From the NCBI GenBank assembly GCA_009779975.1, contig WRAY01000006.1:1-64000 (forward strand): a DNA stretch of 64,000 bases. Direction: 5' to 3'. The notes below the pieces were generated by a model, which was not told the DNA's origin, did not search any database, and worked only from the letters and a program-made list of their open reading frames with translations. The position numbers and the translations under genes are program-made. This DNA comes from Bacillota bacterium (lineage in GTDB: Bacteria; Bacillota; Clostridia; Christensenellales; Pumilibacteraceae). Of the stretch, positions 2,415-5,091 are shown piece by piece. Every line of letters begins with the position of its first letter. Position 1 is the stretch's first letter.

Positions 2415-2663
2415 TTAACTGCAGCACTCGCAGCATCCGCAACTGCATGAACAGGGGTCTTTGCCGACAAAATAACAAATATCGGTAGTTGAGAAAATTT
2501 GTCCGATTTTTGCCAATGTGAAAATATCGGGAAGGCTTTCTCCTCTCTCCCATTTGCCGACAGCCTGAGGGCTGACAGAAATTTGCTTTGCGAATTGTGC
2601 TTGGGAGAGTTTTAATTTTTCTCGTCCCTCTTTTATTCTTATTCCCACGATATTGTTGTTCAT
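2415..2663 (-). CDS. XRE-family helix-turn-helix regulator with a Cys-rich C-terminal tail
   Basis: An 82-residue protein. Residues ~10-58 are a standard XRE/Cro helix-turn-helix (LSQAQFAKQISVSPQAVGKWERGESLPD). The last 12 residues hold seven cysteines in C-x-C-x-C-x-C-C-x-C-C spacing, a likely thiolate metal-binding tail. The start at 2663 follows the stop of the upstream Cys-rich peptide by 5 nt and has only a weak AAGAAAA site, which suggests translational coupling. A longer reading from 2783 in the same frame is rejected because it overlaps that peptide out of frame. Inference: a metal- or thiol-sensing autoregulator of the operon. The HTH is certain; metal sensing is untested. Confidence 0.85.
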   Translation of the reverse strand: MNNNIVGIRIKEGREKLKLSQAQFAKQISVSPQAVGKWERGESLPDIFTLAKIGQIFSTTDICYFVGKDPCSCSCGCCECCS

Positions 2664-2668
2664 ATTAA

Positions 2669-2830
2669 TTATTTTCTTGTTAAAAAACATTTGCATCCGC
2701 AATTGTTTTCCTCTGTGCATACGCATGGGCAGCACGAACATTCTTCGCCTGTAAAGACTTTGTTGAAACAGTCGCACCCGCAATTACTATCAGGTGTGCA
2801 TTGACACGGACAACATGGACATTCTTTCAT
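2669..2830 (-). CDS. metallothionein-like Cys-rich peptide (two 8-Cys repeats)
   Basis: A 53-residue reading frame with an excellent ribosome site (AAAGGAGG, 8 nt before the ATG). It has 16 cysteines, arranged as two copies of C-x-C-C-x-C-x-C-x5-C-x-C-x-C-F (residues 4-22 and 31-49) joined by an 8-residue linker. There is no signal peptide, so it is probably cytosolic. The C-x-C and C-C density resembles metallothioneins, but I do not recognise a named bacterial family (SmtA, MymT). It is first in a two-gene operon with the XRE regulator, behind a promoter and a palindrome. Storage or buffering of Cu, Zn or Cd is inferred from composition alone. Confidence 0.8.
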   Translation of the reverse strand: MKECPCCPCQCTPDSNCGCDCFNKVFTGEECSCCPCVCTEENNCGCKCFLTRK

Positions 2831-2880
2831 TATTTTGACCTCCTTTGCATCGCTGATGCTATTTGAATGTAAAATTATTT

Positions 2881-2892
2881 TTGTTTAAACAA
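2881..2892. promoter_or_regulatory. palindromic operator candidate TTGTTTAAACAA
   Basis: A perfect 12-bp palindrome (14 bp allowing the flanking T/A pair). It lies a few bases downstream of the predicted minus-strand start point (~2897) and upstream of the Cys-rich peptide's ribosome site, where an XRE repressor would block transcription. Confidence 0.45.
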
Positions 2893-2903
2893 ACTACATA
2901 TTT

Positions 2904-2932
2904 AATATATCATATATATATTGATAAGTCAA
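2904..2932 (-). promoter_or_regulatory. promoter of the Cys-rich peptide/XRE operon
   Basis: Read on the minus strand: TTGACT (2932-2927), 17-nt spacer, TATATT (2909-2904). It sits about 75 nt upstream of the peptide ATG. Confidence 0.65.
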
Positions 2933-3931: not shown

Positions 3932-4648
3932 ATGAAGAAATTAAAAAATATTATTTTGACATTATTTGTGGTAATTTTGGCAAGTTTTTCTTTTTCTGCT
4001 TGTGATTTTTTTGTTTTGCAAAACGGGAGAAGTGGTGTGGTTTATGCTGTTTATCAAATGAATGTAAGTGAGGATTATAATGTTCTTTTGCAAAGAAAAG
4101 AAGCGACAAAAGATAGAATGAAAAATTATCTAATATCTTTAGGTTTTACTCAAAATACTATTGCAATAGAAGGTGAAGATAGGCTTCGTGTTGAAGTTGC
4201 AACAGACGGAGACCAGTATGCAGTTAAAAGACTTTTAAAAGATATGGGTGAGCCGTCGGATTTTTCTATTCGATTGGACAGCATTTATGGAGAAGATATT
4301 GGCATAACCGGACGGAACATCACGGCTTTGAGAGGGTATTTTGATTCAGTTTTTGAGACATATTTTGTCCGTATTTTTTTGGATTCTGTTGGGACAACCA
4401 GATTTGCAAATGCAACTTTACCTAAAAATTTTGAAAGACTAATTTCGTTTGTTAGTATCACAGGCGGCATTGAACAAGAAATTTCTCGTCCAAGAATTCA
4501 AACTCACATTACAAACGGAAGAATAATAATTTCCGGATTTGAAAGTGAAATTGAAATGAACCGTTTCATTAACCAAATCATCTCAGGTCAATTTGAAACT
4601 CGTTTGACACTTATAGAAACAGGGGCAAGAGGAGGAAGAGAAAGATGA
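3932..4648 (+). CDS. lipoprotein resembling the extracytoplasmic head (P1) domain of SecD
   Basis: 238 residues. The signal peptide (KK, then a hydrophobic core) ends in the lipobox S-F-S-A-C at about 20-24. The mature part follows the SecD P1 pattern: a helix ending in L-x-x-L-G-F, then G-E-D-R-L-R-V-E-V, a G-x-x-x-D-F-S-I-R-L strand, I-T-G-R-N-I, V-R-I-F-L-D-S-V-G-T-T-R-F-A-N-A-T, and a closing I-I-I-S-G-F-E-S-E-x-E / I-I-S-G-Q-F unit. The six-helix SecD membrane domain is absent. The gene overlaps the next one by ATGA and is probably co-expressed with it. A SecDF accessory or decoy role is inference; sequence identity to SecD is low. Confidence 0.65.
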   Translation: MKKLKNIILTLFVVILASFSFSACDFFVLQNGRSGVVYAVYQMNVSEDYNVLLQRKEATKDRMKNYLISLGFTQNTIAIEGEDRLRVEVATDGDQYAVKRLLKDMGEPSDFSIRLDSIYGEDIGITGRNITALRGYFDSVFETYFVRIFLDSVGTTRFANATLPKNFERLISFVSITGGIEQEISRPRIQTHITNGRIIISGFESEIEMNRFINQIISGQFETRLTLIETGARGGRER

Positions 4649-5091
4649 AAAAAACTGATGACAATGAGATAAGAGTTGCAAAAATAGCAATAAGTTACTT
4701 TTGTTTATTTTTACCGTTTGCGGTGTTTCTTGCATTGATTTTTGTTCGTCTTTTTTCAGGATTAGTTCAAGAACCTCTTAACACATTGAATGTTTTTACC
4801 ACCTTGGTTGCGATATTATGCGGAGTATTGACATTTTTGGTGATATCTTCACCAAAGTATGAAAAGAGAGTGATTATTCTAAAATTTACAACACTTATTG
4901 TTTTGTCTGTATTATATGCTGTTTATGTGGCGCTGCTCTTGACAGGATATGTTGGGTGGGCAGCGTTTCTTTCAACCGGTGTGTTTATAAGTGCCGCTAA
5001 TCATGGGGTTGCCGGCACTTTGATTATAGTTTTGTTTTTTGTTGTTCTTATTGGTGTTGTTGGATATTTGACAAGAAAAAAAGAAGAATAA
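4645..5091 (+). CDS. four-helix membrane protein, function unknown
   Basis: 148 residues with hydrophobic segments at about 10-38, 46-68, 74-100 and 117-142, and a short KKEE tail. Its ATG overlaps the stop of the SecD-like lipoprotein gene (ATGA), with AGGAAGAGAAAG upstream, so the two are translationally coupled and may act together at the membrane. It does not show the conserved SecD/SecF transmembrane motifs. The family is not recognised. Confidence 0.7.
   Translation: MKKTDDNEIRVAKIAISYFCLFLPFAVFLALIFVRLFSGLVQEPLNTLNVFTTLVAILCGVLTFLVISSPKYEKRVIILKFTTLIVLSVLYAVYVALLLTGYVGWAAFLSTGVFISAANHGVAGTLIIVLFFVVLIGVVGYLTRKKEE

Follow-up and report, generated by a model that had tools for sequence, protein, structure and literature searches.

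Two short genes follow one another on the reverse strand of the 64-kb stretch of DNA analysed here (the window). The first (2830-2669) encodes a metallothionein-like peptide of 53 amino acids, 16 of them Cys, arranged in two 8-Cys repeats; both copies fit the pattern C-x-C-C-x-C-x-C-x5-C-x-C-x-C-F. The second (2663-2415) begins 5 nt past the stop codon of the first and encodes an XRE regulator of 82 amino acids with seven Cys among its final 12 residues. A perfect ribosome-binding site, AAAGGAGG (2846-2839), lies 8 nt upstream of the peptide ATG, preceded by a sigma-70-type promoter, TTGACT-N17-TATATT (2932-2904), that is close to consensus (10/12). An earlier note, made from the sequence alone, had described both reading frames, the ribosome-binding site and an upstream promoter, and in these respects its account holds. 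The XRE gene has no obvious ribosome-binding site and is thus probably translated by coupling. It is followed by a terminator hairpin (2333-2364) shared with a converging gene (977-2314). Two further elements on the same strand may be regulatory: a putative XRE operator, CAACTAAAAGTAG (2955-2967; general form CAAC-N5-GTNG), which ends 45 bp before the −10 element, and a 14-bp palindrome, TTTGTTTAAACAAA (2880-2893), close to the expected start site. Elsewhere in the window, a short lipoprotein-like protein (3932-4648) contains a SecD head-type domain alone (PF22599, E 2.5e-8), and a small membrane protein (4645-5091) adjoins it.

Among the 864 open reading frames of 20-120 amino acids in the window, the peptide is the richest in Cys (30%, the runner-up having 22%). 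With 16 Cys in 53 residues it falls within the broad definition of a metallothionein, namely a small protein with about 20-30% Cys in CxC, CC and CxxC motifs. No relatives were found by BLAST or in Pfam, NCBIfam or the PDB, and a protein-level search with the peptide alone returned nothing from 74 genomes of its own family and nothing from GTDB contigs. Curated models of prokaryotic metallothioneins, among them the SmtA/BmtA type, likewise gave no match at Pfam E <= 10 and NCBIfam E <= 1, a negative to be read with the caveat that HMMER bias filters may weaken Cys-rich matches. The concern that the peptide might belong to a known but unrelated family was not borne out, since the database searches gave no match of that kind. 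PDB sequence matches to the peptides of this type were discarded as weak Cys-rich coincidences (e.g. Cys regions of SET domains, a conotoxin). Judged by its sequence, the peptide may with moderate confidence be taken to bind metal.

The regulator is a clear member of the HTH_3 family (E 1.6e-13; 50.9 bits against a Pfam gathering cut-off of 23). Its AlphaFold2 model has a five-helix domain (pLDDT about 81-97 for residues 1-60), for which Foldseek finds P22 c2, ImmR and the controller proteins of restriction-modification systems. The Cys-rich tail CSCSCGCCECCS (2418-2453), read in the window as DPCSCSCGCCECCS, is modelled with low confidence and predicted to be flexible. Matches to NCBIfam antitoxins all fall far below cut-off, so the protein is not placed in a type II toxin-antitoxin system. 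Confidence that the tail, too, would bind metal is moderate.

This arrangement is not confined to the window. At least 16 genes for XRE proteins with Cys tails occur in at least 13 genomes, all from a single order, in which three families are represented: that of the window, that of genome G268 and that of genome G438, the last linked to the order by genome searches. Four other genomes of the window's family carry such XREs at 55-70% identity, and in each a small Cys-rich reading frame lies immediately upstream, too divergent in sequence for BLAST. Genome searches contributed G268, G827, G839, G824 and G908. A scan of GTDB contigs showed the Cys-tail-bearing genomes of the window's family to be metagenome assemblies from higher-termite guts, with the isolate codes Emb289, Lab288 and Co191, and added at least three loci. 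According to Herve et al. 2020 (PMC7024585), the codes refer to the termites Embiratermes neotenicus, Labiotermes labralis and Cornitermes sp. The closest relatives of the window that bear the module (peptide gene plus Cys-tailed XRE gene) are thus termite-gut assemblies. A search of 391 genomes across the class gave no further members, and one across the order and one further family added only G268 to the loci listed here.

A scripted survey found a Cys-rich reading frame upstream of 15 of the 16 Cys-tailed XRE genes and of 2 of 107 tail-less relatives, both of these being weak cases (Fisher p = 3e-16, a value that treats the loci as independent although they are related). At the sixteenth locus, in G824, the peptide has 18 amino acids and 4 Cys and fell below the threshold of the script. 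Of the 16 upstream peptides, 14 look intact (17-53 amino acids, mostly 25-45% Cys, G824 having 4/18), one is frameshifted (G064:C6, possibly an error of metagenome assembly) and one is truncated and has no promoter (G070:C33). A peptide profile run over the 13 module genomes matched module loci only; no orphan copies were seen. The co-occurrence in related Clostridia that the earlier note had proposed as a test is therefore observed, with peptide and tail travelling together at 15 further loci; orthologues do have the tail, and a Cys-rich peptide is conserved in position, its sequence having diverged beyond detection by BLAST. What is retained is Cys: all seven Cys are invariant in six tails of the CGCC type, where most neighbouring residues vary, and an alignment of four peptides from one subtype keeps all 12 Cys columns unchanged, compared with 8 of the 19 others. 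The alignments point to purifying selection acting on Cys in tails and peptides alike. The subtypes also seem to pair up, CPCTPxECKC peptides with CGCC tails and CGG peptides with KWCC-like tails, in the few loci available.

Relatives outside the module differ in what accompanies the DNA-binding domain. A tail-less branch, represented by L252, L253 and Bacteroidota loci in L143-L213, is fused to pentapeptide-type repeats; it has the helix-turn-helix domain and operator in common with the module and is missing the tail and the peptide. L252 and L253 bear a CAAC-N5-GT operator. The related XRE of G161 (L121/L142), preceded by a CAACTAACGGTTTA site, has a CPCC motif and an extra domain of about 70 amino acids with no Cys peptide, and was kept out of the module count. 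An XRE profile search of viral contigs gave seven matches; those reported stop at residue 76 or earlier and leave the tail uncovered.

The sequence CAAC-N5-GTNG (consensus ACAACTAAYGGTRGC) lies upstream of the promoter in 15 of the 16 modules, the exception being the truncated one; it is weak in L136 (TTACTAATTGTGG), and the final base deviates in L251. The window's copy, written as CAACTAAAAGTAGC (2967-2954), is the sole match to CAACTAANNGTRGC in its 2.03-Mb genome. Over nine genomes (about 14 Mb) this pattern has 10 matches, 8 of them at module promoters; the reversed pattern gives 8 matches in total, so that the location of the sites is informative and their number is not. The same operator stands beside the genes of tail-less XRE relatives, a link between this protein family and the site. 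That the XRE protein binds CAAC-N5-GTNG is strongly suggested by these comparisons.

The spacing between operator and promoter is regular. From the operator end to the −10 element there are 24 bp in five loci, 34-35 bp in eight and 44-45 bp in two, including the window; second operator sites lie at 54, 56, 65 and 65 bp. The choice of −10 is ambiguous in L140 (32 or 34 bp) and was made by eye in L166. With a period of 10.5 bp the distances are in phase, differing by complete turns of the helix (resultant 0.97; p = 2e-4 when each distance is counted once). If the −10 element occupies −12 to −7, the operators are centred near −42, −53 and −64, which are usual positions for activators. A protein that sits upstream of −35 and always on the same side of the helix would most plausibly be in contact with RNA polymerase, and with moderate confidence the XRE protein can be predicted to activate its own promoter, although an upstream operator does not in itself prove activation.

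The earlier note had instead assumed a repressor, a role that fits the operator-promoter spacing less well, and had proposed 2881-2892 as its binding site. The palindrome is real (2880-2893) but is an unlikely site for the regulator, as relatives conserve 2955-2967 instead. Perfect palindromes of 8-14 bp, centred 11-17 nt past the −10, recur in the window and in L135, L139, L140, L141, L190, L248, L249 and L251, and the longest ones sum to 120 against 80 in shuffles; their sequence differs by clade (TTTGTTTAAACAAA, ACCTTGCAAGGT, TTGCTAGCAA, GGAATTCC). A role as the conserved operator was rejected for this reason. The palindromes nevertheless lend something to an alternative in which the same two-gene metal operon is controlled by an autorepressor that metal releases from DNA, as in SmtB, with the upstream sites acting through cooperative binding or looping with the palindrome. 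Repression is the role of most small XRE proteins that we know of, many modules have a palindrome 10-17 nt past the −10, and the window's near-consensus promoter would also suit repression. Nevertheless, at most loci the only conserved operator is found beyond the core of the promoter, at whole-turn distances, and a single recognition helix would hardly be able to recognise all the start-site palindromes, which vary between clades. We regard autorepression as unlikely.

The reading we prefer, and consider somewhat better than an even bet, is a self-activating metallothionein operon in which an XRE activator would sense a thiophilic metal or metalloid through a metallothionein-like tail. It is favoured because peptide and tail occur as a pair, their Cys positions are fixed, the operator is common to the loci and its distances are helically phased. 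The product of the first gene would buffer the metal(loid). The product of the second, a small XRE protein, would bind the CAAC-N5-GTNG site that closely precedes the promoter of the operon, most likely as an activator. Its tail would form a small metallothionein-like cluster, and loading with the same thiophilic metal or metalloid would switch the protein on. More peptide would then be made, the metal would be soaked up and the tail unloaded, closing the loop.

The neighbouring genes bear on the possible ligand. Reading frames around 11 module loci were surveyed, mostly by eye and only in some cases with HMMs, and no conserved metal transporter adjoins the modules, which counts against the preferred reading, as does the lack of matches between the peptides and metallothionein families. 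In G064:C6 and G070:C33, a gene for a SAM methyltransferase starts inside the XRE gene or 1 nt past it; the two coupled enzymes (L134:6254-6871 and L156:6254-6862) are 56% identical and are found nowhere else in the 13 module genomes. In G070:C174, the gene for an arsenite methyltransferase (338 bits against a cut-off of 263) ends just upstream of the module. Arsenic and elements related to it are known to undergo methylation, and the operon-linked methyltransferases in some relatives thus make arsenic or another metalloid open to methylation a candidate ligand; further possibilities are copper, zinc and cadmium. A literature search for termite guts in connection with arsenic found nothing. 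The arsenite methyltransferase at L190:470-1285 has a Cys-rich C-terminus, and its gene ends just upstream of a module operator. In G069 (L223, G069:C13:18465) the operator occurs once more, with unchanged distance to the promoter, ahead of a methyltransferase gene that is not linked to a module and is possibly a second member of the regulon.

Sensing of thiol redox state would be expected to leave a similar sequence signature, which counts against reading the Cys clusters as metal sites. The tail could be a switch responding to oxygen, disulfide or nitrosative stress or to electrophiles, with the peptide serving as a thiol buffer and no dedicated metal involved. The hosts of these bacteria provide an anaerobic gut, Cys is dense and His absent, and a thioredoxin reductase gene lies upstream of one degenerate locus. 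That neighbour is, however, found at only 1 of 16 loci; moreover, two to four Cys suffice for single redox switches, and C-x-C-C-x-C and C-x-C clusters running along a whole peptide are typical of metal-thiolate ligands. A redox switch is consequently distinctly improbable in our view. We give still less credence to a precursor of a ribosomally synthesised and modified peptide (RiPP), or a toxin, accompanied by an XRE control protein or antitoxin: a small reading frame does adjoin an XRE gene with weak, sub-threshold antitoxin matches, and a radical SAM gene adjoins one locus (L137), but the 11 module loci have no maturase or transporter in common and so do not resemble RiPP clusters, Cys is spread along the entire peptide with no division into leader and core, and the XRE tail would be left unexplained. 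Finally, chance Cys-rich readings of non-coding DNA, of the kind that an exact-pattern scan of viral contigs returned in number (79 stretches with matching Cys spacing, discarded after translation as low-complexity or out-of-frame Cys runs), can practically be dismissed here given ribosome-binding sites, conserved position, invariant Cys columns and a common operator over 13 genomes.

A self-activating metallothionein operon of this type could be the bacterial counterpart of the yeast Ace1/CUP1 pair: an XRE activator that took on metal(loid) sensing when it acquired a short tail of metallothionein type, and that co-evolves with the metallothionein under its control. We put this forward tentatively, at a little under even chances. 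To our knowledge, bacterial metal sensors belong to a handful of protein families, and XRE is not among them; a search of the literature turned up no system of this kind. Should the parallel hold, it would add a type of metal sensor outside the established bacterial families, linked in some lineages to metalloid methylation. Were the tail indeed the sensor, the recipe would be minimal, a dozen metallothionein residues placed on a generic DNA-binding domain, and the modules offer natural pairs with differing tails and peptides. As the peptides are short, evolve quickly and escape BLAST, comparable metallothioneins may have gone widely unnoticed, and the regulator with its operator provides a route to finding them. 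No description of an XRE-metallothionein pair was found in the open-licence literature, which leaves its absence elsewhere unproven.

Several known systems share part of this design. The cyanobacterial smtA-smtB pair joins a metallothionein gene to a dedicated regulator, an ArsR-type repressor that is transcribed divergently (PMC7387436). The module has in common with it a metallothionein-type gene with a regulator of its own; it differs in that its regulator is of the HTH_3 (XRE) type, lies downstream on the same strand in one operon and has activator-like operator spacing, in that SmtB has no metallothionein-like tail, and in that the peptide matches no known family. MymT of Mycobacterium tuberculosis is a small, Cys-rich copper metallothionein that functions in copper detoxification (PMC7387436). 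Like the peptide it is small, bacterial and rich in Cys, but it is not known to have a Cys-tailed partner, and the two show no sequence match. It is regulated in trans by a CsoR-type repressor.

The controller (C) proteins of restriction-modification systems are small XRE proteins that both activate and repress their own promoters (PMC3874152), and they provide a precedent for the regulation proposed here. C.AhdI and C.BclI are, like the module's regulator, small autoregulating helix-turn-helix proteins of similar fold (Foldseek TM 0.65-0.80), and its putative operator, like those of this group, precedes the promoter of its own gene. Among the neighbours of the 11 module loci surveyed, none was recognised as a restriction-modification gene, which sets the regulator apart from the controllers proper, and we know of no C protein with a Cys tail.

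Fungal copper regulators offer parallels to the tail itself. The second Cys repeat of Cryptococcus Cuf1 has a CCX3CX4CXCX3CCXCCXC run (PMC4992176) of a Cys density similar to that of the XRE tail; Cuf1 is fungal, and its DNA-binding domain is not homologous. In yeast Ace1 (Cup2), CxC and CxxC clusters bind copper and switch on the metallothionein gene CUP1 (PMC4992176). As in Ace1/CUP1, the Cys clusters of the XRE regulator resemble those of the metallothionein it would control, and the logic appears to be that of an activator. Ace1 is eukaryotic, binds DNA through an unrelated domain and does not form an operon with its target; the module's regulator has an XRE domain of bacterial type for this purpose, and its Cys cluster sits at the C-terminus. 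The two share no homology.
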